A stretch of DNA of 64,000 bases from an uncultured Opitutia bacterium (GTDB lineage: Bacteria > Verrucomicrobiota > Verrucomicrobiia > Opitutales > Opitutaceae), in NCBI GenBank assembly GCA_903902745.1, contig CAIUWA010000036.1:1-64000 (forward strand), given 5' to 3'. A program made the position numbers and the translations under genes. Shown piece after piece: positions 13,619 to 24,498 of this stretch (position 1 is its first letter; every line of letters starts with the position of its first letter). The notes under the pieces are model-generated. The model had not been told where the DNA came from. It saw nothing but the letters and a program-made list of their open reading frames with translations, and made no database searches.

Positions 13619-14404
13619 TCACTTGATGATCGTGGGCGCGGCCTTGTGGCCGCTCAGCCGGTACACTTCCAAGGCCTTGGGCAATTCCTCCGTCAGTCGC
13701 TGAATGCGCTCGGGCGTCGAGGGGTGATTCGACTGCAGGGTATCCTTGATCGACATCGAGGCGCCGGTGACGTCCTCCAGCCGCTCGAGCACCTTGATGG
13801 CCTCCTCGGGATTGTAGCCGGCCTGTGCCATGTAAATCATGCCGATGTGGTCGGCTTCGCGCTCCTTGTCCCGGTCGAACGCGAGATCGCCCGACGCGCC
13901 CACGGCCTGCTGCATGATCATGATGGGGGACGCGACGATGCCCAGCGTGTCCTTGGCCATGTCGCGCGACAGCCGCTCCTGGACATGCTTGGCCGTCACG
14001 TGGGCGATTTCATGGGCGATGACGGACGCGAGCTGGTCATCGTTCTGGACCACCCGGAAAAGTCCGGTGAAGACGCCGACGCGGCCGCCGGCCATGGCAA
14101 AGGCGTTGATCTCCTGCGGGACATCAAAGACGACGAATTCCCAGTTGGCATCGCCGACCTCCCACCACGGGATCACTTGGGACAGGCGCTCGCCGACGCG
14201 GTTGAGCTGGTCGACGCGCTCCTGGTCGCGCGAGATCGGATAGTGGGCCTTCATGTCATCGAAGGCCGCGATGCTCATCTTCGTGACCTCCTTTTCATCG
14301 ACGAGATTCAGCGCGCTGCGGCCGGTGACGGGCACGGTGTAACACCCGCCGAGCAACAGGAGGACCGGAAGCAAGGGGAGGATGCGGCGAACGGAAGGAT
14401 TCAT
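13619..14404 (-). CDS. M48 family metalloprotease, lipoprotein
   Basis: This 261-residue zinc protease is probably anchored to the inner face of the outer membrane and takes part in envelope protein quality control. A lipobox LLGGC places the lipidated Cys at residue 21. The metal site is VIAHEIAHVTAKH (His131, Glu132, His135), with the third ligand in READHIGMIYMAQAGYNP. The order and size match LoiP/YcaL-like M48 lipoproteins rather than membrane-spanning HtpX. ATG 14404 is preferred because it gives a compact signal peptide; an ATG four codons upstream (14416) is also possible. The gene is convergent with xylB. Confidence 0.9.
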   Translation of the reverse strand: MNPSVRRILPLLPVLLLLGGCYTVPVTGRSALNLVDEKEVTKMSIAAFDDMKAHYPISRDQERVDQLNRVGERLSQVIPWWEVGDANWEFVVFDVPQEINAFAMAGGRVGVFTGLFRVVQNDDQLASVIAHEIAHVTAKHVQERLSRDMAKDTLGIVASPIMIMQQAVGASGDLAFDRDKEREADHIGMIYMAQAGYNPEEAIKVLERLEDVTGASMSIKDTLQSNHPSTPERIQRLTEELPKALEVYRLSGHKAAPTIIK

Positions 14405-14658
14405 ACGTCGGCTCATGGGAGGGGGAGAGGGTCGGTCCGGGCGGAGGGAGCGTACGGGCAGGGCGAGGTTTGGCAAGTGTGAGACCCCCGCGGGTTGGCA
14501 GGGTTCATGCAATCCATTCTGTTACCTTTAGGCCGTTGCATTTTTTTACAGGTTCGCCATGTTAACCATCACACTCATTAACTCGCCGGGAACGTTGATG
14601 AAAATTGCCCGTCACACTCCTGCCGGCACCCCCTAGAACCTTTCAGCCTCCTCCCCTT

Positions 14659-16362
14659 ATGGCCGAAGAAACCGATTCACCGTTCGGAAAAAAGCACCGG
14701 GTCATCCACTGGAACCCCGACGCGGGCAAAGAGCCCGCCAAGCGCCGCTGGACGTGGAAGCGCATCACCCTCTGGACAGTCGGCGGCTTTGTCGGGCTGC
14801 TGTTTGTCGCGGGCGGCGTGATCCGCCTCGTGAAGCTGGTGAAGCCGCAGGCCTTCCAAGCCCAGGCGGTGGCCACCGGCACGCCGGGCAGTGTGGATCC
14901 GAATGCGGCGTTTGTCAGCCAGACCAAGGCCGAGTTCGCGCACGAAAACGTGGGCAAGGCGCTCGCCGAGCTGCGCCGCCTGCCGGTGAGCCATCCGCGC
15001 CAGCTCGAGAAGTTCATCATGATCGAGAAGGATTTTGTCGCCGCGGAGACCACGCTGGATACCCACGACTACGCTGCGGCGTACGCCCAGTTCGGGTCGC
15101 TCAACCGCCGCATCGAGGACTTCGGCCTCTCGATCAAGTCGCGCGAGGACGCCCAGCTCGCCTACAATGAGATCCTCGTCAAAATCAAGGCGATGGAGCC
15201 GGCGCGCAGCCTCGCGCCCGAGGCCCTCGAGGCGGCCACCACCGCGGCGAGTGCCGGCCGGCAGTTTCTCAGCGATGGTGATTTTCTCATCGCGAAGAAG
15301 ACCCTCGACGAGGGATTCGCGCAGTTGAAGAAGGCGGAGCAGGCCCTCGACGATCATGTGTCGGGCAACATCTGGCGCGGCCAGCAGGCGCTCGTCGCCG
15401 GGGCGCGCCAGGAGGCCGGCGAGGCCTTCCGGGCGGCACTGGAGAAATCCCCGGGCAACGAAGTGGCCCTGCAGGGATTGAAGCGCGCGGAAACGATCGA
15501 CCGCGTGCATGCGCTGCTGCTGCAGGGCGAGGATCTGGAGAAGAAGGCGCAATACGCCCAGGCCGCCGAGGCCTACCAGAAGGCCTTCGCGCTCGATGCT
15601 TTTTCCGCCGCTGCGCAGGAGGGCCAGTCCCGCGCCAGCCGACTGGAGACGGAAACCAAGTTCAACACCGCGTACGCGGCGGCCCAGGCCGCATTCAAGG
15701 CGAAGGAATGGGGCAACGTCGTTTCGGAGGGCGAGAAGGCCCTTAAAGTCTATCCCCAGCGGACGGAAGTGCGGCAGATGATCAAGTCCGCGCAGGAAAG
15801 CGCCCACACCGAGGCCGTGCAAAAGGCGCTGGCCAAGGCCTACGCCTACGAGAACCAGCACCAGTGGATCGAGGCGCGCGACGCCTACAGCGAAACCCTG
15901 CGGCTGGAGCCGGGCCTGGCGGATGCGAAGGAGGGCTTTGCCCGCTCCGGCACCATGATCCGCACCCTGATTTCCTACAACGCCTCCATTGCGGAAGCCG
16001 AGAAGCGCGTCGCGCGGAATGATTTCCAGGGCGCCACCCGCAGCTTTAATGACGCGATGTCCGTCAAGCCGTCGTACCTCGTCAACAACGACCGCATCAC
16101 CCAGCTCCACGCCATGCTGGAGGCCCAGAGCAAGCCGATGGACGTGACTTTCCGTTCCGATGGAAAGACCTGGGTTTCGATCAGCACATTCCGCCTGCTG
16201 GGCCAGATTGATTCCTCAACGGTGAAGATGCTCCCCGGCGACTACGAAATCGTGGGCCGCCGCAAGGGCTACAAGGATGTCTTCCTGGTCCTGCAGGTGC
16301 GCAACGGCACACCTCCCCCCGTGGTCAACGTTGTCTGCTCCGTCAGCTCGGACAAGGGCTGA
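14659..16362 (+). CDS. Membrane-anchored TPR protein with PEGA-like C-terminus
   Basis: This 567-residue protein has a basic cytoplasmic N-terminus, one membrane helix at about residues 36-58 (LWTVGGFVGLLFVAGGV) and a long periplasmic array of TPR-like Ala-rich helical pairs (for example AAEAYQKAFALDAFSAAAQEG and ARDAYSETLRLEPGLADAKE). The last 80 residues are beta-rich and include VKMLPGDYEIVGRRKGYKDV, a PEGA-like surface-domain signature. It is the first gene of a three-gene unit with two secreted Gly/Gln-rich proteins (12 and 28 bp gaps) and converges on the ExbB/vWA operon. It is probably a scaffold for an envelope assembly; no enzymatic motif is seen. Confidence 0.75.
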   Translation: MAEETDSPFGKKHRVIHWNPDAGKEPAKRRWTWKRITLWTVGGFVGLLFVAGGVIRLVKLVKPQAFQAQAVATGTPGSVDPNAAFVSQTKAEFAHENVGKALAELRRLPVSHPRQLEKFIMIEKDFVAAETTLDTHDYAAAYAQFGSLNRRIEDFGLSIKSREDAQLAYNEILVKIKAMEPARSLAPEALEAATTAASAGRQFLSDGDFLIAKKTLDEGFAQLKKAEQALDDHVSGNIWRGQQALVAGARQEAGEAFRAALEKSPGNEVALQGLKRAETIDRVHALLLQGEDLEKKAQYAQAAEAYQKAFALDAFSAAAQEGQSRASRLETETKFNTAYAAAQAAFKAKEWGNVVSEGEKALKVYPQRTEVRQMIKSAQESAHTEAVQKALAKAYAYENQHQWIEARDAYSETLRLEPGLADAKEGFARSGTMIRTLISYNASIAEAEKRVARNDFQGATRSFNDAMSVKPSYLVNNDRITQLHAMLEAQSKPMDVTFRSDGKTWVSISTFRLLGQIDSSTVKMLPGDYEIVGRRKGYKDVFLVLQVRNGTPPPVVNVVCSVSSDKG

Positions 16363-16374
16363 CCCCACCCCTAC

Positions 16375-17193
16375 ATGCGCCTGCTCCGCCCCGCCGTCGG
16401 CCTCGCCGTCGTTTTTTCCTGCGTCACTGCCTTTGGCGCGACCGCCTTGGAAAAGGAGCGCGACGCCAGCCGGACGGCGCGCGGCCCGCTGCCGGATCCC
16501 GACCTGCTCGACGGCGCCGGCCAGAAGGCGGAGAAGCGCGCGGATCATGGCATGCTCGGCGAATTTGAAATTCCCGGTGACGACTCGAAGAGCGATAAAG
16601 TCGGCGGCCAGCAGCAGGACAAGGCCGGCGGGTCCGGTCCGCAGATGGAGGCGCAGAAGGATCAATCCAGCGCAGGAGGCGGAGGTCAGCAGGACAAGTC
16701 CGCGCAAAGTGGCGGAGGCGGCCAGCAACAGGACAAGAGCGCCCAGAGCGGCGGCGGCGGCGGGCAGCAGGGCGGCGATCAAAACGCCAAGGGCGGTGGC
16801 GGCGGGCAGCAGTCGGCCGACGCCTCGTCCCAGGGTAGCGGCGGCCAGCAGGGCAGTGCCGGTCAGAACGGCAGTCCCGGCGGCGGTCCGCAGTCCGGCG
16901 ATCCGGGCGCCAAGGCCGGCGGCATGCAGGTCGCCCAGGTGAGCAGTGGCGCGGCCGGCCAGCAGGGTGGACAAGGCGGCAGTGGCAAGCCGACGCAAAT
17001 TTCCATTGGCGACCCCTCGATGCAGATCAAGCAACCCGCCGCGGCGCAGGGTGCCGTGGGCGCCCAGGTAGCCGGCAGCACGCAGCAGATGGAAAAGGCC
17101 ATTGGCTCGGGCACCGGCGCGACCGGTGGTTCTTCCGGCGGCCGCGGAGGCGCCGGCGTGGAAAAGGGGCAGACCATGCCCAAGGGACTTTGA
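16375..17193 (+). CDS. Secreted Gly/Gln/Ser-rich low-complexity protein
   Basis: This 272-residue protein has a signal peptide (MRLLRPAVGLAVVFSCVTAF, cleavage near 22), a short charged section containing an acidic patch (GEFEIPGDDSKSD), then about 170 residues dominated by Gly, Gln, Ser and Ala with repeated QQDKSAQSGGGG units. It has no globular domain I recognise and is probably disordered outside the cytoplasm. It sits 12 bp after the TPR gene and 28 bp before a second protein of the same type. The strand is supported by the signal peptide and codon-position GC. A surface matrix or adhesive role is conceivable but unproven. Confidence 0.65.
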   Translation: MRLLRPAVGLAVVFSCVTAFGATALEKERDASRTARGPLPDPDLLDGAGQKAEKRADHGMLGEFEIPGDDSKSDKVGGQQQDKAGGSGPQMEAQKDQSSAGGGGQQDKSAQSGGGGQQQDKSAQSGGGGGQQGGDQNAKGGGGGQQSADASSQGSGGQQGSAGQNGSPGGGPQSGDPGAKAGGMQVAQVSSGAAGQQGGQGGSGKPTQISIGDPSMQIKQPAAAQGAVGAQVAGSTQQMEKAIGSGTGATGGSSGGRGGAGVEKGQTMPKGL

Positions 17194-17221: not shown

Positions 17222-18235
17222 ATGAAAACCCTTCGCCGCCCCCTCTGTTTGCTCGCCATGCTCGTGCTGGCGGCCGCTGCCCGGGCGACGTCCATGATTT
17301 ATCCGGTCGAGGCGATTGACGACCTGTGGAAGCTGCAGGCGGACGCGTTCAAGGAAAAATATGCCGGGATCAACGTCACCGGCCTCGATGTGAACGACGA
17401 GGGCTGGTACGTGCGCTACCGCCATGAGAACCTGACCTACTTTTTCGGCCCGATTGCTGATCGGGAGGAGGCCCAGAGGAAAATGTGGGAGCTGGAGTCG
17501 GTGCGCGACGCCGCGATCCGCAACCGGCCTTCGCTTTCAAGCAGCCAGATCGATTTTGTCCGCTTCACCTACTCAGGCGTCTACGGCGCCCGCGGCAACA
17601 CGCCGTACACGGGAAAAAAAGGCGGCGCCGGTGGTGGCAAGGATGGCTCCGGCGACCAGGCTGACAACACGGGCAACGGCGGCCAGGGTAATAAGGATGG
17701 TTCCGGCAAGAACGGCAATGGCGGTGGAAAGGATGGTACCGGCAACAGTGACACGCAGGGTGCCAACGGGCAGGGAAACGGGCAGGGCGACATGGTCGGC
17801 GTGCAACTGGCCGGCCTAGGCGGTGGCCAGGGAGGCCAAGGCAGTCAGAATGGGGACAAGTCCGGTGGCCAGAATGGCCAACAGAACGGCATGGGCGGGC
17901 AAAACGGCCAAAATGGCCAGGGCGGCGGACAAGGTGGTCAACAGGGTGGCCAACAGGGTGGACAGCAAGGCGGACAGCAGGGTGGTCAACAAGGTGGTCA
18001 GCAAGGTGGACAGCAAGGCGGGCAACAAGGTGGGCAGCAGGGTGGCCAGCAAGGTGGACAATCCGGCCAGAGTGGCGGGCAATCCAGCAGTCAGGGCGGC
18101 AGTAGTGGTGGCGGAGGTGGCGGAGGCGGTGGCCAACCGGGACAACCGGGCCAGCCTGGCCAGCCGAGCCAAGGCGGCGGCACCAATCCGCTGCAGATGC
18201 TGGTCGGCTTGCTTCGGGGCATCCTCGGCCTCTGA
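17222..18235 (+). CDS. Secreted protein with (GGQQ)n repeat tail
   Basis: This 337-residue protein starts with a signal peptide (MKTLRRPLCLLAMLVLAAAA, cleavage near 22). Residues 23-125 form a compact folded-looking domain (MIYPVEAIDDLWKLQADAFK, YVRYRHENLTYFFGPIADRE) without a known family. The rest is low complexity: Gly/Asn/Lys-rich, then ten consecutive Gly-Gly-Gln-Gln units encoded by a 12-bp minisatellite, then a GQPGQPGQP segment and a short hydrophobic C-terminus (NPLQMLVGLLRGILGL). The amphipathic tail may bind membrane or a partner. It is last in the TPR unit and ends just before a REP-like hairpin. Confidence 0.65.
   Translation: MKTLRRPLCLLAMLVLAAAARATSMIYPVEAIDDLWKLQADAFKEKYAGINVTGLDVNDEGWYVRYRHENLTYFFGPIADREEAQRKMWELESVRDAAIRNRPSLSSSQIDFVRFTYSGVYGARGNTPYTGKKGGAGGGKDGSGDQADNTGNGGQGNKDGSGKNGNGGGKDGTGNSDTQGANGQGNGQGDMVGVQLAGLGGGQGGQGSQNGDKSGGQNGQQNGMGGQNGQNGQGGGQGGQQGGQQGGQQGGQQGGQQGGQQGGQQGGQQGGQQGGQQGGQSGQSGGQSSSQGGSSGGGGGGGGGQPGQPGQPGQPSQGGGTNPLQMLVGLLRGILGL
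17933..18052 (+). repeat. 12-bp minisatellite, ten units, encoding (GGQQ)10
   Basis: Ten head-to-tail 12-mers of the form ggNggNcaRcaR run without interruption, with drift only at third positions, followed by a diverged unit (ggtggacaatcc). The strict frame and the synonymous drift show selection at protein level. Repeat number is likely to vary between strains. Confidence 0.95.
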
Positions 18236-18351: not shown

Positions 18352-19356
18352 CTACAAATCCTGCAGCGCGATGAAGGCGCCGCCGTGCTCGAAGCAGAGT
18401 TCGCGCATGAGGTTGGCGAAGCGCAGGCCGGTGTTCCCCATTGAAAACTGGTAGTTGACCGTCGTGGGGAAACCAATCGCGTTGATGACGACCTTGCGGT
18501 GTCCGTCGGCGTCGGCCGGGTTCAGCTTGTCGATCGCGTTCAGCGCACTCTCCGCCGAGTCGCCGGTGCTGAATTCGTCACCGAAAATATAGATGGCCAT
18601 CTTCATCTTTTCGTTCGCGGGATCATATAGCCGGGTCAAGGCCTGCTTGATGCCGGGCACGGGATTGCTGGTATTGTCCGCGGCATAGCGGCGCATGGTG
18701 CGGATGCCCTGCGCGCGAGCCTCCGGGGAGTCCTCGATCCAGCTGCGGCCGCCCAGGATGAAGCGGCCGTCGGCGTCGATGAACTGGAAGCCCTCGATCT
18801 TCGGGTAAACCTCGAGCACCTCCTGCATTTTGCGAATCGCAATGGACCAGAGCCCGTCCGTGACCGGGTCGCGCATGCTGCCAGAGCAATCGACGACGAA
18901 GACGACGTGGGTGATGTTGCCCACGGGCAGGCCGACGGGCAGGGGCTCGACGTTAGGTAGCAGTGGGGCCTCCGACTTCTTCTGCCGGGCGGCGATTTCC
19001 TTCCTCAGTTCGTCGACGTCAACCAGCAGCGCCTTCTGCCCCCGTTTCTCGTTTTGCAGCTGTCCTTCCAGCTCGTCGATCAGCGCATGGACGCTGTCAT
19101 TTTTCAGGCGGGCATCGACGAGCAGGTCGGTCACCCGGGTGTTGCTGCGCTCCAGGTCCTCCTTGGTCACGTGGATCTGCGCGATGGCCGCGATCTTGTC
19201 GGCGAGGATCTTGCGCAGGCCGGCGAGGACCTCCTCGTTGGCCTTGTTCTGGGTGCTGACGCTGAGCACGAAGATGAGAATGATCGCGCCAAAGCCGCAG
19301 CAAATGCAGTCGAGGAAGGCGAGGCTGAACACCTGCGTTGGACGGCGGCGCATCAT
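18352..19356 (-). CDS. vWA-domain protein with MotB/ExbD-like membrane segment (intact MIDAS)
   Basis: This 334-residue protein has an N-terminal membrane helix with an embedded acidic residue, VFSLAFLDCICCGFGAIILI (Asp16), the arrangement that MotB, ExbD and TolR use to bind the transported proton. A coiled-coil-like charged stretch (40-135) follows, then a von Willebrand A domain (about 148-334) with an intact metal-binding motif VVDCSGSM (D156, S158, S160). It should have its vWA domain outside the cytoplasm. It is last in the operon: the upstream vWA gene's stop overlaps its start (ATGA), implying coupled translation. The ligand is unknown. Confidence 0.85.
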   Translation of the reverse strand: MMRRRPTQVFSLAFLDCICCGFGAIILIFVLSVSTQNKANEEVLAGLRKILADKIAAIAQIHVTKEDLERSNTRVTDLLVDARLKNDSVHALIDELEGQLQNEKRGQKALLVDVDELRKEIAARQKKSEAPLLPNVEPLPVGLPVGNITHVVFVVDCSGSMRDPVTDGLWSIAIRKMQEVLEVYPKIEGFQFIDADGRFILGGRSWIEDSPEARAQGIRTMRRYAADNTSNPVPGIKQALTRLYDPANEKMKMAIYIFGDEFSTGDSAESALNAIDKLNPADADGHRKVVINAIGFPTTVNYQFSMGNTGLRFANLMRELCFEHGGAFIALQDL

Positions 19357-20423
19357 GTGTCGGGCCAGGTTTTGGCAGGACTGACCAGGGCGCCATGGCT
19401 GGCATTGGCGAGCAGCCAGAACGCCGCGGCCGACGCCGGGTCGCCATTCAGGGGCATGAGAATCGTGCTGACCGGGATGCGCTGCGGCAGCTGCCGGATC
19501 GCCGCGTCAAAAAACTGCTTGCGCAGCTGCGCGTCGGTCGAGCCCTCGCTGGGAATGGAATCGCTCAGCGTCGGCAAGCCGTCGGTGAACAGCACGATGC
19601 TGTCCGGCAGGTGCTTCATGTAACGGACGGTGGTGAAGGCCCGCTCCAGGTTGGCGGGGCCCTGCGGCACGATGGTGTGCAGCTTGCCGATGATGTCCTT
19701 CAACGCCTGCCGGTCACCGGGGGTGAACCACTCCTCCGTCCGTCCCGGGAGGACCGGCGTGGTCTCCTCGTTGAAGAACAGGATTTGGAAATGAGTCTTG
19801 GGGTCGAGCGTGGCGATCATCCACTCGAGCGCATGCAGCGTGCGCTGCCACTTGGGCGCCTCCCGTTTCTTCACGTCCGAATCCTCCAGCCGCGCCGTGG
19901 CCGCCTCGATTGTGTCGTCCAGCATGCTGCCCGACATGCGCACGATGAAGAGGATGTAGTCGCCCCGCAGCTTGACGCCGGTGAGGTACTGCCGGCGGTC
20001 GGCGTTCGGAATCGGGAGCGGTGCGTGGTCGTCCGTGGGCAGGAGCTTCTTTTCCCCGAGCAGGGTGGAGAGGGCGTCCTTCAGCATGCCGGTCTGCTGG
20101 AGCAGCAGCAGCAGCTCCTTCTTCCGGTCGCTCAGCTTGAGCTGGTCCTGCGTGTTCTTCGCGTTGACGTCCTCCACCTCGACCTGCTGCGCCGCCAGCG
20201 CCTGCGCGATGCGATCGACCTCGGCCTGGCTCATTGCCACGTCATGCTCGAGCCGCTTCACCCGGGCCTGGACATCGGCGACGTTCTCGGTGTCCGCGAC
20301 CGTCTTCTGCGAGATGGTGAGGATGAAGACGAGGATGACCGCGCCGAAGCCGCAGCAAATGCAATCGAGGAAGGCGAGGCTGAACACCTCGGTTTCGCGA
20401 CGCTTGGCGGCAATCTTGGCCAT
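19353..20423 (-). CDS. Second vWA-like protein with MotB/ExbD-like segment (degenerate MIDAS)
   Basis: This 356-residue paralogue of the next gene has the same N-terminal block EVFSLAFLDCICCGFGAVIL (Asp20), a coiled-coil stretch (45-125) and a vWA fold (about 153-350). The metal motif reads FIVRMSGSM, so the leading Asp is Arg162 while both Ser remain; later strand motifs such as SIVLFTDGLPT are kept. It probably forms a heteromer with the intact paralogue but may not bind a divalent metal. The start at 20423 (MAKIAAKRRE) is chosen because upstream sequence belongs to the preceding gene. It lies 22 bp after the Hsp70-like/FHA gene. Confidence 0.85.
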   Translation of the reverse strand: MAKIAAKRRETEVFSLAFLDCICCGFGAVILVFILTISQKTVADTENVADVQARVKRLEHDVAMSQAEVDRIAQALAAQQVEVEDVNAKNTQDQLKLSDRKKELLLLLQQTGMLKDALSTLLGEKKLLPTDDHAPLPIPNADRRQYLTGVKLRGDYILFIVRMSGSMLDDTIEAATARLEDSDVKKREAPKWQRTLHALEWMIATLDPKTHFQILFFNEETTPVLPGRTEEWFTPGDRQALKDIIGKLHTIVPQGPANLERAFTTVRYMKHLPDSIVLFTDGLPTLSDSIPSEGSTDAQLRKQFFDAAIRQLPQRIPVSTILMPLNGDPASAAAFWLLANASHGALVSPAKTWPDT

Positions 20424-20445
20424 GGTGCAGGCGGGGCCGGGCGGT

Positions 20446-21942
20446 TCAGGCGCGAGGGGCGGCGGAGCCCTCGCAGTGCACGAAGAGCACGTCGGCGGCA
20501 TGGGTGCCGCAGCGGATGGCAAGGTGATCGCCGGCCTCGACCACGGTGCGCAGGGTGGACTCCGCGGCGGTGGAGGCGGCCTGGGGCGGCGCGGGATCGA
20601 CAAACCACAGGCGTCCACCCTCGCGGACCAACTGCACGACGCAGTCGCCGGCGGCGTTGAACGGCTCCGGCAGCGCCAGGTCCGCGCAGGCGCTGGCGGA
20701 ACCAATGGTGAAGGTGCCGTTGCCACCCATGAGATGCCCGATCCCGTCAATCACGGCATGCGTCGGCATCGGGCGCGGATCCGTGTGCCGCGATTTCTGC
20801 AGGCGCGCATCCCATGGGGCGCCCGTGGCCCGGCAGGCATCGTCGGCCGGGACGGAAATTTCGACGGGGACATCGGAGAGATCGGACGGCACCGTGAGGC
20901 GCCGCTGCCCGATGCAAGCCGCCCCGGAGGCCGCCGCGCCGCGCGGCAACCGCAGCAGGCGGTTGAATCCGGCCGCGCGCAGCCGGGCTTCCAAGCCCGG
21001 CAGGCAGACGGCGCGATCAGTCAGGGCGAGGGTGCACGGCTCGGGCCCATGACCGGGCGCGGACGCAAAGGCCTGCAAGCCCTGCACGAGCGTGCCGACG
21101 AACGCCGAGGCATCGGCGACGAGCTGCTCATGCTTGACCAGCATTTCATAGGTGCGGCTGGAGGTGTTGACCTGGAAGCGGCCCTCGGCCGCGCCGCCGA
21201 GCATGAAATCCTTGGTCTGCCGGTAAAACATCTGCTCGATGCGGCCGTCGGCGAGGATGTCGAACGCGGTGTGCCGGAGAAACCGGTTGCCCATCGTGCC
21301 GGTGAGATGCTTCAGCAGCTGCGCATAACCGGACTGGGACAGCTGGAGGAATTTTTGCCGCTCCAGCCGCGCGCCGGTGGAGAACAACGTGAACTCGGCG
21401 CCCTGCAGTTGGACGTCCAGGACAATCACGGGCAGATTGGGATTGAAGCCGCCGGCCCGCGGGTCGCACAGCGCGGCGCAGGCCATGTCGATGATCCCGG
21501 CCAGCGGCAATTTCAGTTCCCCGGCCATGCCGAGCACCAGGCCGATTTTTTCGTCCTCGGTGGCGGCGTCCTTCAGGTATGAGCCGGGCACGGCGAGCAC
21601 GAGCTTGTCGATGGATCCCGCCGACGTGGCGAGGCGCTGGCGGAAGTCGCGCAGGAACAGGAAGGCCAGTTCCGAATAGGAGGGCGGCTTGCCCACGATG
21701 GTCAGCGAGGAGGGCTCGTGCGTCAGCTTGGAAAGGAAGGAATGCGCCACGCTCCGGGGATGCACAAACCACGCGTCCTCGGCGGGGCGCCCGAATTGGA
21801 ATTTCTGGCCGTCATGGTAGGCGTAGCCGGGCCAGTCCATGGCCCCGCCATTGGTGCCGGGACTCAGCAGTTGCGGACCATCCTTTTCCGCCGCGGCGAC
21901 CTGCACGCCGGCATCACAAAGTTCAAGGCCAAGGGTGGACAT
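20446..21942 (-). CDS. Degenerate Hsp70/actin-like ATPase domain fused to FHA-like domain
   Basis: This 498-residue cytoplasmic protein has the block order of an actin/Hsp70/PilM-type fold: TLGLELCDAGVQVA at the N-terminus (phosphate-1 position), KLVLAVPGSYL (about 113-123), AGIIDMACAALCDP (connect-1 position) and PVIVLDVQLQGAEFTLFS (phosphate-2 position). The Gly/Thr/Asp residues that hold nucleotide are largely replaced. Residues about 410-490 resemble an FHA domain (GTFTIGSASACADLALPEP, RLWFVDP). It lies 19 bp after the ExbB-like gene and 22 bp before the first vWA gene, suggesting a cytoplasmic adaptor. Both domain calls rest on pattern recognition by eye. Confidence 0.6.
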   Translation of the reverse strand: MSTLGLELCDAGVQVAAAEKDGPQLLSPGTNGGAMDWPGYAYHDGQKFQFGRPAEDAWFVHPRSVAHSFLSKLTHEPSSLTIVGKPPSYSELAFLFLRDFRQRLATSAGSIDKLVLAVPGSYLKDAATEDEKIGLVLGMAGELKLPLAGIIDMACAALCDPRAGGFNPNLPVIVLDVQLQGAEFTLFSTGARLERQKFLQLSQSGYAQLLKHLTGTMGNRFLRHTAFDILADGRIEQMFYRQTKDFMLGGAAEGRFQVNTSSRTYEMLVKHEQLVADASAFVGTLVQGLQAFASAPGHGPEPCTLALTDRAVCLPGLEARLRAAGFNRLLRLPRGAAASGAACIGQRRLTVPSDLSDVPVEISVPADDACRATGAPWDARLQKSRHTDPRPMPTHAVIDGIGHLMGGNGTFTIGSASACADLALPEPFNAAGDCVVQLVREGGRLWFVDPAPPQAASTAAESTLRTVVEAGDHLAIRCGTHAADVLFVHCEGSAAPRA

Positions 21943-21961
21943 CGTGGTTCAACCCGGGGGT

Positions 21962-22813
21962 TCAGGAATAGACGCTGCTGGATTCGTCCTTCGTCGGCAC
22001 CTTCATCACATCGATCAGCTGGTCGCGGCAGTGGACCTGCGTCTCGATGATGAAGGCCTCCTGCCGCGACTGCACGGTGTGCAGGAAGAACATTAGCACG
22101 ATGCACAGGGCGAGGCCGACAAAGGTGGAGTTGAAGGCGAGGCCGAGGTTCTGGGTCACGGGCGAGATGTCGCCGTGGATGGCCAGTTCGGCGAACGAGA
22201 GCGCGCCGCCGATGCCGCGCACCGTGCCGATGAAGCCGATGGCCGGGATGGCCCAGGCGATGTAGCGGACGAGCGAAAGGGTGGAGTCGAGCTGGTCGGC
22301 GGCGAGTTCCGCGCGCTCCCGCACGGCGTCGGCCGCGTCGCGCACCGAGTTGGTGGCATGGAACCGGTGGAGGGCCGCGAGCATGCACTCGGGCAGCAGG
22401 CGTTCCCGCCAGCGCGGCTCGCGCTCAATGGCGACCTTCAGCTCCTTGTAGCGGTCCAGCGCGTCCTCCGGGATGATGCGCTCGCCCGGCTGGACCTTCA
22501 CGAAGTCATGCTTGAACAGGGCGCGCTCGCGGCTCACCTGCATGAACTTGTAGCCGAGCACGATCATGCCCCAAAGGCAGAAAACGACCTCCGCCTCGGG
22601 CTCGTGGTCCTTGATGATGACAAAGAAGGGCCGTTCCTGCAGGATGGCGGTGTTGCCCTGGGCGGCCATGACGCGGCGGCGCATCATGAATTCCTCCGAG
22701 CGGGGCGTCACATAGTAATGGTAGAAGAGACCAACAAACAGCGTGGCGGCGACCAGGCCGAGCACGGGAACGAGAAAATCGAGGGAGAGAAAACCCTTGT
22801 TGCGCGAGATCAT
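21962..22813 (-). CDS. MotA/TolQ/ExbB family proton channel protein
   Basis: This 283-residue inner-membrane protein has helices at about 10-32, 76-92, 183-206 and 225-246 and a large cytoplasmic loop between the second and third. The signature is PAIGFIGTVRGIGGALSFAE (from residue 190), equivalent to the TolQ/ExbB motif, followed by LGLAFNSTFVGLALCIVLMF. Proteins of this family form proton-conducting pentamers around B-subunit helices. Here the only candidate B subunits are the two vWA proteins of the same operon; no ExbD/TolR follows. It is first in a tight four-gene unit and divergent from a lipoprotein gene. Confidence 0.9.
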   Translation of the reverse strand: MISRNKGFLSLDFLVPVLGLVAATLFVGLFYHYYVTPRSEEFMMRRRVMAAQGNTAILQERPFFVIIKDHEPEAEVVFCLWGMIVLGYKFMQVSRERALFKHDFVKVQPGERIIPEDALDRYKELKVAIEREPRWRERLLPECMLAALHRFHATNSVRDAADAVRERAELAADQLDSTLSLVRYIAWAIPAIGFIGTVRGIGGALSFAELAIHGDISPVTQNLGLAFNSTFVGLALCIVLMFFLHTVQSRQEAFIIETQVHCRDQLIDVMKVPTKDESSSVYS

Positions 22814-23060: not shown

Positions 23061-23687
23061 ATGAAAAAAATTATCTGTGTCGGAACCGCACTGGCCGTGG
23101 CTTTCCTTGCCGGTTGTTCCTCCAGCGGCGTCGCGCCGTCGAAGACCGCCAGTGGCGCGGGCACGGGTGCGATGATCGGCGGCGTCGGCGGTGCACTGGT
23201 CGGCGGCAACAGCAGCATGGGCACGGGCACCGGGCTGTTGGGTGGTGCGGCGGCGGGTGCGCTGGTCGGCGGCGTGGTCGGCATGATTCAGGACGCCAAG
23301 GACCGCAAGGAGCAGGACCGGCTCGCCCAGGAGCGTGCCTACCAGCAGACGCTGGCCCGCCAACGGCAGGAGGAATCCAAGCAAAAGGCCGCGAAGGATG
23401 AGGAACTGGCCATTGCCCAGGGTTTCCAGATTTCGGATCTCGAGTTGACCGACGCGCAAAAGCGCGAGGCGATTGCGAATGAACAGGTCAAGGCGCTGCG
23501 CGAGGAACGCGCGGCCGCCATGGCCAAGAAAAAGGCGCTGGACGATGCCAAGGAGCACACGCTCGCCGCCGAGGCGGAGATCGCCCGGCTGCAGGAAGAG
23601 CTGGCCCGCCTGAAGGGCGAGGGCACCGGCGGCAAAGCCTCCCCGCGTCCCGAGGCCGTCCCCACCGCGGGCGGTTCCGGCCCGTAA
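23061..23687 (+). CDS. Glycine-zipper lipoprotein with coiled coil
   Basis: This 208-residue protein has a lipobox (VAFLAGC, Cys19), a Gly-zipper hydrophobic segment (GAGTGAMIGGVGGALVGG through GAAAGALVGGVVGMI, about 40-88) that may insert in a membrane, and a charged, Glu/Lys/Ala-rich coiled coil (about 90-195). The start at 23061 is the ATG beginning MKKIICVGTALA. It is transcribed away from the ExbB/vWA operon across a 247-bp AT-rich gap that probably holds both promoters, and is followed by another lipoprotein gene. It is likely an envelope structural protein. Confidence 0.75.
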   Translation: MKKIICVGTALAVAFLAGCSSSGVAPSKTASGAGTGAMIGGVGGALVGGNSSMGTGTGLLGGAAAGALVGGVVGMIQDAKDRKEQDRLAQERAYQQTLARQRQEESKQKAAKDEELAIAQGFQISDLELTDAQKREAIANEQVKALREERAAAMAKKKALDDAKEHTLAAEAEIARLQEELARLKGEGTGGKASPRPEAVPTAGGSGP

Positions 23688-23769: not shown

Positions 23770-24498
23770 ATGACACCGCGATCGACTCCCCGCCTGCTGC
23801 CGGTCGTTTCGCTCGTCGCCGCGGCGCTTTCGGTTTGGAGTGGTTGCGCGACCACCTACGACGTGAAGGTGGACGCCATCACCCAGCCCAAGGCGAAGGA
23901 GACGGCGGCCTCCTACCGGATCAAGAACAAGAACCCGACCACGGAGGAGGACAATCTCCGCTACAAGGAGGCGGCCAACTACGTCAAAACCGCCTTGTCC
24001 GGCCGCGGCATGTACGAGGCGCCCGGCAACACGATCCCCGACGTGATCGTGGAACTGGACTACGGCATCGAGCCGCCCAGCGTGCGCATGGAGAAAACCA
24101 GCGTGCCGATTTATGTGCAGACCGGCGGCGGGGTGAGTTACAACCCGCTCGCGGTGACCGGAACCGGCGGGGCCGTGACCCAGCGCACGGTGCCGGTTTA
24201 CGAGGCGCCGCACACGGAGCTGGTCGGTTACCAGGAAGTCATGGTCCCGGTGGCAATTTACGAAAAATACCTGCACATCAGCGCGCGCGAGAACCGGGAA
24301 AGCAAGGAAGGCAAGGTGCCCACGGAAATCTGGAGCGTGAACACCACCCTTGAGGACGAGAGCAAGGACATCCGCAAATACCTGCCGGTGCTGGCCTCAG
24401 CCTCGATGGAATCCATCGGCACCGATACCGGCAGCCGGAAGACCATCAAGCTCAAGGAAACCGATCAGAACATCGGTTTCGTCAAGAAGGGCCTGTGA
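23770..24498 (+). CDS. Lipoprotein of unknown function
   Basis: This 242-residue protein has a signal sequence with a possible lipidation Cys at 26 (LSVWSGC). The mature part (TYDVKVDAITQPKAKETAAS, then alternating beta-type segments) recalls DUF4136-like lipoproteins, which start with a similar strand pattern around 'Y.V..d', but the match is weak. It lies 82 bp after the Gly-zipper lipoprotein gene on the same strand. The product may belong to the same envelope assembly; there are no catalytic motifs. Confidence 0.7.
   Translation: MTPRSTPRLLPVVSLVAAALSVWSGCATTYDVKVDAITQPKAKETAASYRIKNKNPTTEEDNLRYKEAANYVKTALSGRGMYEAPGNTIPDVIVELDYGIEPPSVRMEKTSVPIYVQTGGGVSYNPLAVTGTGGAVTQRTVPVYEAPHTELVGYQEVMVPVAIYEKYLHISARENRESKEGKVPTEIWSVNTTLEDESKDIRKYLPVLASASMESIGTDTGSRKTIKLKETDQNIGFVKKGL

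Follow-up and report, generated by a model that had tools for sequence, protein, structure and literature searches.

A four-gene operon was analysed that occupies positions 18352-22813 on the minus strand of a 64,000-nucleotide stretch of DNA (the window: contig CAIUWA010000036.1, positions 1 to 64,000) from an uncultured Opitutia bacterium. A preliminary description, made from the sequence of the window, had proposed an undescribed, proton-driven envelope machine at this site, built from an ExbB-like channel, two proteins with von Willebrand factor type A (vWA) domains, and an adaptor with Hsp70-like and forkhead-associated (FHA)-like parts. The genes are labelled, in their order within the operon, tolQ-like (gene 1), gene 2, vwaB (gene 3), and vwaA (gene 4). 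The features of the operon are as follows, positions being those of the window:

21962..22813, minus strand: gene 1, TolQ/ExbB/MotA-type channel subunit of 283 aa (MotA_ExbB at 54.4 bits, alignment to TolQ, Thr conservation, clade in the channel tree)
20446..21942, minus strand: gene 2, predicted soluble adaptor of 498 aa (AlphaFold2 model, Hsp70 fold match, FHA comparison by hhalign, loop conservation)
19353..20423, minus strand: gene 3, vwaB, with a predicted N-terminal trans-pore helix carrying Asp20, a likely coiled coil, and a vWA domain (VWA_3 at 31.8 bits)
18352..19356, minus strand: gene 4, vwaA, with a predicted N-terminal trans-pore helix carrying Asp16, a helix at 14-124, and a vWA domain at 147-334 (structure model, fold match)
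20364..20366, minus strand: codon of Asp20 of vwaB, predicted proton-carrying Asp (invariant in 80/80; aligned by eye to PLLD of E. coli TolR)
19309..19311, minus strand: codon of Asp16 of vwaA, predicted proton-carrying Asp (invariant in 76/76)

The intergenic gaps amount to 19 bp (gene 1/gene 2) and 22 bp (gene 2/vwaB), and vwaB and vwaA overlap by 4 bp (ATGA), which confirmed the tight arrangement initially reported. Relatives were collected by a scan of genome contigs from 84,980 species, in which 539 pattern stretches were found; 462 of these encode a relative, and the best 80 were kept. All locus counts given below (80, 76, 73, and so on) rest on these best 80 of 462 confirmed relatives, neighbour counts were taken only among loci with enough DNA (referred to as eligible), and the sets of relatives overlap, some genomes looking identical to others (L037 and L048, for example, share the same length and gene positions). 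The titles of the best 80 name Verrucomicrobiota or groups within that phylum, some of which we take to belong there. In 73/73 eligible loci vwaA comes directly after vwaB (with a spacing of 294 bp in one locus), gene 2 is located upstream of vwaB in 74/76, and the tolQ-like channel gene is present in 71/72. The gene neighbourhood, the conservation of which had been put forward as a check on the proposal, was thus recovered in Verrucomicrobiota, the four genes adjoining in nearly all relatives, and a chance arrangement is excluded because the same operon recurs in other genomes. The complete operon is also carried by the cultured Pelagicoccus mobilis KCTC 13126 (L122), and its occurrence in strains of this kind makes it accessible at the bench. 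No relative was found among 72,556 plasmid records (vwaA as the query, E up to 1e-5). A phage origin was rejected, none of the four proteins giving a PHROGs match at E up to 0.01.

The product of gene 1 scored 54.4 bits with Pfam MotA_ExbB (PF01618; cut-off 22.9), as expected of the TolQ/ExbB/MotA-type protein it had been taken for, and lies far below the equivalog cut-offs for TolQ, ExbB, and MotA. Hydrophobic segments were located by hydropathy at residues 6-33, 76-94, and 222-250, the first of which is an additional N-terminal segment relative to E. coli TolQ; the conserved GFIGTVRG segment falls below the hydropathy cut-off. Upon alignment to E. coli TolQ, Thr197 and Thr230 were found to occupy the threonine positions of the TolQ family. 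Both positions are kept in 72/72 tolQ matches, as is the pore motif P..GF.GT..G, and a second motif, AF.ST, is present in 69/72, with AFNTT in the remaining 3.

The genome of the window encodes six MotA_ExbB proteins and contains six ExbD matches, one of them below the cut-off. Each of the other five channel genes adjoins an ExbD match. Beside gene 1 no ExbD profile match was found, the nearest on the contig being at 64702 (approximately 42 kb away) and none lying within 41 kb; a dedicated ExbD/TolR partner, the presence of which the preliminary description had denied, was therefore not found for this channel. A channel tree of 45 rows was calculated that included 20 vWA-linked channels, a subset of those at hand. 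These 20 channels, that of the window included, were placed in a clade of 22 rows with a support of 100/100, whereas E. coli TolQ and the remaining five channels of the genome fall outside it; reliance is placed on this clade only, the tree having one row (L018) with many gaps and great length and several points at which long branches come together. Because the channel belongs to a clade of its own, and because it has no ExbD beside it while the five others each have one, its lineage is regarded as specialised and set apart from the other ExbB-type channels of the genome. The clade also holds the channels of L044 and L045, which adjoin a pair of membrane-helix proteins without a recognisable vWA domain (L044:9008-12160 and L045:8906-11921); the heads of what are interpreted below as axle proteins seem to have been exchanged within this one channel lineage.

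The proteins encoded by vwaB and vwaA share 30% identity over 175 aa, LAFLDCICCGFGA included, and are, as judged from this similarity, paralogues; the common segment had already been pointed out. Asp20 of vwaB and Asp16 of vwaA are situated near the N terminus, inside the sole segment of each protein that exceeds the hydropathy cut-off, and correspond to the Asp of PLLD in E. coli TolR in an alignment set by eye. The original placement of this residue in a membrane helix, as in MotB/ExbD/TolR, is in line with these results, and its invariance, which had been named as a point to be checked, was found in 80/80 vwaB and 76/76 vwaA proteins, as well as in 28/28 vwaB and 27/27 vwaA proteins of a more divergent, partly overlapping set. 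The predicted trans-pore helices furthermore contain DCICCGFGA, a motif rich in Cys in which both the final Cys and the GFG are invariant (80/80 vwaB and 76/76 vwaA proteins); the corresponding helix of E. coli TolR contains no cysteine.

With regard to the C-terminal parts, vwaB exceeded the cut-off of Pfam VWA_3 (31.8 bits vs 27), and vwaA remained below every Pfam vWA cut-off (18.6 bits of 23.8). The model of vwaA (predicted local distance difference test score, pLDDT, 83; predicted template modelling score, pTM, 0.57) consists of a single long helix (residues 14-124) followed by a vWA domain (147-334); in the fold comparison a vWA structure, that of inter-alpha-inhibitor heavy chain 1, was matched with Z 17.6 and 2.6 Å over 165 residues. 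The vWA domains attributed to both proteins were hence recovered by Pfam VWA_3 for vwaB and by model fold for vwaA. In the single-chain model of vwaA, the portion of the helix past the membrane (approximately 88 residues) would span about 13 nm at 1.5 Å per residue.

The two domains differ in their metal ion-dependent adhesion sites (MIDAS). In vwaA the MIDAS residues D156, S158, S160, S230, and D260 are invariant in 49/49 rows, and the D.S.S pattern is intact in 27/27 proteins of the wider set. The first MIDAS position of vwaB is occupied by R or E, and never by Asp, in 80/80 close relatives; in the wider set, the first metal Asp is absent in 19/28 vwaB proteins and kept in 9/28, the copies with Asp belonging to more distant families and to a second operon copy. 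Because 9/28 of the wider set retain this residue, the unequal metal sites appear to be a trait of the lineage of the window and of some others, and not of the whole family. The second operon copy just mentioned (L046:9394-14036) is a more divergent version of the entire four-gene operon in a genome (G010) that also carries an operon of the first type (L038), and its vwaB retains the metal Asp. Metal-dependent adhesion, suggested as a possible function at the outset, is conceivable in this lineage for at most one vWA domain, that of vwaA, because vwaB is devoid of the first metal-site Asp (80/80).

In the AlphaFold2 model of the gene 2 protein (pLDDT 89, pTM 0.82), residues 1-350 take the fold of an Hsp70 nucleotide-binding domain (Z 33.7, 346 residues, 3.1 Å), so the supposed likeness to Hsp70 was borne out at the level of the fold. 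No Pfam match was obtained for gene 2 at E up to 0.1, and neither HSP70 nor FHA of Pfam matched any of 59 aligned gene 2 members at E up to 0.5. A profile search of the PDB reaches Hsp70s with a best E of only 6.7e-4, and hhalign against DnaK alone gave a weak result (probability 23.6, single-comparison E 8.6e-4); the assignment to Hsp70 rests on the fold because the sequence comparison with DnaK is weak. Kinship to PilM/FtsA instead of Hsp70 was considered and appears less likely, all 50 rows of the fold comparison shown, to which this statement is confined, being members of the Hsp70 family.

The C-terminal 105 residues of gene 2 (approximately 388-490) were compared with FHA domains of related genomes by hhalign, which gave a probability of 95.9 and a score of 49.1; in 40 column-shuffled controls the best score was 20.4 and the mean 10.2. 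The FHA set used (21 of 33 FHA loci, namely those matching an FHA pattern) is biased to canonical domains. With this separation from the shuffled controls the FHA-like part of the original assignment was likewise supported. The C-terminal domain is strand-rich in the model, but the rows of the fold comparison were all taken up by Hsp70s.

Residues of the ATP site were mapped to DnaK via the low-probability hhalign alignment (23.6), that is, not in three dimensions. In this mapping, the GTT phosphate-loop pattern is not kept, its position being taken by C/S, D, and A/V in most of the 59 rows; the GGGT position shows just one frequent Gly column (Gly181, 31/59), and the glycines of the adenosine loop (GG.TR) are not kept. 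In the FHA-like part, the Arg after IG (position 415) is found in 0/59 members, and S..H within 424-445 in 2/59. Because the ATP-loop patterns and the phosphothreonine-binding Arg are not kept, gene 2 is probably a non-catalytic adaptor, a pseudo-Hsp70 with a degenerate, pseudo-FHA end, which may still bind nucleotide weakly. As a separate observation, DnaK was not found in the assembly of the window (G000), in which HSP70 matched nothing but a frame of 339 aa, at 38.7 bits, that may encode MreB; DnaK was found in 12/12 related genomes searched, and its absence from the assembly probably reflects an assembly gap.

The distribution across the phylum was assessed with a sample of 387 genomes, of which 54 gave a match at E up to 0.001 and 23 a strong, near-full-profile match (E below 1e-60). 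In 22 of the 23 strong-match genomes a second vWA match lies next to the first, the exception being G179, in which it is on another contig. Gene 2 was detected in 17/23 genomes, 13 times at 78 bits or above and four times at 16-23 bits; its presence in G041 is uncertain. An alignment of four short gene 2 versions matches gene 2 with an hhalign probability of 98.3, from which gene 2 is judged to be shortened in some families.

Flagella and gliding are powered by motors of the 5:2 type, as are nutrient uptake, the stability of the envelope, and defence against phages. With the 5:2 motors MotAB/ExbBD/TolQR the operon has in common the channel family, the N-terminal helix Asp, and the ring threonines; unlike them, it encodes two different putative axle proteins that end in vWA domains and not in peptidoglycan- or TonB-type ends, a soluble Hsp70-FHA partner, and a ring protein with an extra N-terminal segment in comparison with TolQ. 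TolQ-like genes accompanied by heterologous vWA pairs with a TolR-like helix and Asp have been described in PMC12204202 (Mol Biol Evol 2025); according to the accessible text of that paper, the description is based on gene neighbourhoods and AlphaFold 3 models, the TolR-like helices enter the pentamer in these models of related complexes and place the Asp pair within the Thr ring, no TolR/ExbD is encoded nearby, the hosts are mainly Proteobacteria and Verrucomicrobia, and the paired vWA proteins are proposed as the axle of TolQ-like motors. Its TPH-vWA/TolQ systems (legend of Fig. 4c-d) combine a TolQ-like gene with a differing vWA pair, a helix Asp, and no ExbD/TolR, and the operon of the window likewise has a TolQ-like gene adjoining two different vWA genes with a helix Asp in both. 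For the core, the term "undescribed" therefore did not hold.

The words Hsp70, DnaK, and forkhead are absent from the main text of PMC12204202 (word search; figures and supplements lay outside its scope), and section 8 of the paper notes neither a difference in metal sites nor, for the TPH-vWA family, lipoprotein or TPR neighbours. The additions made here are the pseudo-Hsp70-FHA gene and the way in which it has been shortened or lost, metal sites that differ between the two heads in some lineages, conserved lipoprotein-like neighbours, and a likely exchange of axle heads. Among the literature hits, PMC12204202 was the only description of this system, the rest having been judged mainly from titles and the beginnings of abstracts; preprints and most subscription papers were outside the coverage. 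A word search of the accessible text of a review of 5:2 motors (PMC9389320) returned no vWA or Hsp70.

A TolQR-type motor, tetratricopeptide repeat (TPR) proteins, and a cytosolic FHA domain are also found in the AglRQS-Glt gliding machine of Myxococcus, in which the FHA-bearing GltG interacts with the motor protein AglR in a two-hybrid assay (accessible text of PMC3169522). Unlike the soluble gene 2 product predicted here, the Myxococcus FHA domain sits on a bitopic, TonB-like protein, GltG. To our knowledge, AglRQS-Glt contains no Hsp70 domain, and AglQ/S carry no vWA domain.

With the gene order, the conserved Asp and Thr residues, the folds, the degenerate loop patterns, and the missing ExbD partner at hand, the operon was interpreted as encoding an ion-driven rotary motor of the 5:2 type with a mixed vwaA/vwaB axle, vWA heads, and gene 2 as a docking part, a reading to which we assign a probability of roughly 0.6. 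Five copies of the TolQ-like protein would form a ring in the inner membrane, the axle of which would be a heterodimer of one vwaB helix and one vwaA helix, each presenting one proton-carrying Asp to the ring threonines. The axle would extend as a coiled coil for approximately 13 nm into the periplasm and carry two vWA heads at its tip, only one of which has a metal site in this lineage, and these heads might grip or deform a partner, the presumed cargo, in the envelope. The cytosolic gene 2 protein, its catalytic loops lost, would serve as the docking part that assembles, places, or gates the motor, and would probably bind either to the cytoplasmic part of the ring or to the N termini of vwaA and vwaB, which form short basic tails. 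This binding is suggested by analogy to the actin-fold proteins PilM (on PilN) and FtsA (on FtsN), which dock to the short tails with which bitopic membrane proteins reach into the cytosol (accessible text of PMC7613929); unlike PilM and FtsA, gene 2 is nearest to Hsp70s among the rows shown and has an FHA-type domain. We infer the 5:2 stoichiometry, the rotation, and the use of protons. The proposal of a proton-driven motor with a moving part ending in vWA domains was partly supported: none of its three refuting conditions was borne out in Verrucomicrobiota, and it was largely right in kind but wrong in calling the core undescribed; its role at the cell surface, like rotation, would still be a matter of interpretation.

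If true, a branch of motors with a vWA-headed axle would mean a new kind of mechanical output. A concrete candidate for controlling such a motor from the cytosol is the pseudo-Hsp70-FHA protein, the gene of which lies between those for the ring and the axle, and the lineages with a shortened or lost gene 2 open its role to comparison. In a more specific and, to our mind, doubtful version, the axle would be asymmetric and two-headed, with one metal-binding and, in the lineage of the window, one metal-free vWA head, and its assembly or direction would be controlled from the cytosol by a fusion of a dead Hsp70 with a dead FHA domain, acting as a pseudo-enzyme clutch; no description of such a clutch on any 5:2 motor was found in the literature searched.

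Several points weigh against the motor with gene 2 as its docking part. Gene 2 was not found in 5/23 genomes with the vWA pair, namely four of family f11 and G316. Because the channels of f11 nest among members with gene 2 (two f11 rows fall within a group supported at 96/98 whose other members have it), a loss of gene 2 in f11 is most likely. Separately, gene 2 is absent from L104, in which tolQ and vwaB are 33 bp apart, and from L114, in which neither tolQ nor gene 2 was found upstream. The latter locus (L114:8992-11051) contains vwaB and vwaA without a channel gene or gene 2 across 9 kb upstream, possibly as an orphan pair or through a rearrangement, and in G316 the channel gene was likewise not found beside the vWA pair. 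Because some lineages lack gene 2, it is considered dispensable for the motor core. That the short tails of the axle proteins are conserved because they bind gene 2 was considered, but L104, which has no gene 2, has kept them in their normal form. In f11 the vwaB tail reads SSALSF vs VFSLSF and the vwaA tail is unchanged, this comparison of tail and gene 2 being only weakly informative. The catalytic-acid positions of gene 2 are mostly kept (D/E at position 7 in 58/59, D152 in 54/59, D176 in 56/59), as is the Arg of the adenosine loop (R310, 57/59), and the mapping of all these residues depends on the low-probability alignment to DnaK. Finally, the helix with the Asp might not move at all and act just as a channel gate.

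The most serious competitor, which we nevertheless hold to be unlikely, takes the channel and the Asp helices as a proton-driven energiser and the vWA proteins as transducers or sensors attached sideways, for example as a ligand-triggered gate, instead of an axle. vWA domains with an intact MIDAS are commonly ligand-binding, and for another vWA family sideways binding to motors has been proposed (accessible text of PMC12204202). However, the Asp of vwaA and vwaB is at the TolR position, with no nearby ExbD match to fill the pore, and the pore-helix vWA family of that paper is reported there to be without the side-binding SHLS motif.

Less probable again is a chaperone-coupled secretion or surface-assembly device, in which gene 2 would be a working, if unusual, ATPase of the Hsp70 family that folds or loads cargo. 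The complete Hsp70 domain fold (Z 33.7), the retained acids and R310, Gly181 in 31/59 members, and the repeat proteins with export-type N termini that adjoin the operon in some relatives would fit such a device. Against it stand the ATP-phosphate-holding GTT and GGGT patterns, which are not kept, the C terminus, which is FHA-like and shows no substrate-binding domain, and the shortening of gene 2 in some families and its loss in another.

A phage-defence system of the Zorya kind is highly improbable and the identity was rejected, because the PADLOC similarities (ZorA to gene 1, 20.4 bits; ZorB to vwaB, 13 bits) are weak and confined to the channel and Asp-helix region that ZorAB shares with the operon, no peptidoglycan-binding end was matched in vwaB and vwaA, which match vWA instead, no further genes able to be the effectors ZorC/D/E are present in the operon, and the neighbouring gene lip1 adjoins in 66/67 eligible relatives, unlike in a mobile defence island.

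The neighbouring genes on both sides of the operon are the following:

23061..23687, plus strand, divergent: lip1, glycine-zipper, lipoprotein-like (Gly-zipper_YMGG at 22.8 bits, below the cut-off of 28.9)
23770..24498, plus strand, divergent: lip2, DUF4136-like, lipoprotein-like (DUF4136 at 19.1 bits, below the cut-off of 32.8)
14605..16362, plus strand, convergent: TPR-repeat protein with an N-terminal membrane helix (TPR_2 at 32 bits)
16375..17193, plus strand, convergent: glyA, glycine/glutamine-rich with a hydrophobic N terminus (from sequence and hydropathy)
17222..18235, plus strand, convergent: glyB, hydrophobic and export-type at the N terminus, conserved in its N-terminal part, and with a long repeat of the GGQQ type
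13619-14512: M48-type peptidase lipoprotein look-alike beside the TPR gene (HEIAH motif identified by eye)

On the convergent side, the TPR-repeat protein and glyB each recur in 18/41 eligible relatives, and a relative of the peptidase look-alike is found at the same place in 17/41 eligible loci. On the divergent side, lip2 adjoins the operon in 60/64 eligible relatives, in addition to lip1 as given above, and the lipoprotein-like products of these two genes are the ones to be considered first as possible partners of the vWA heads.

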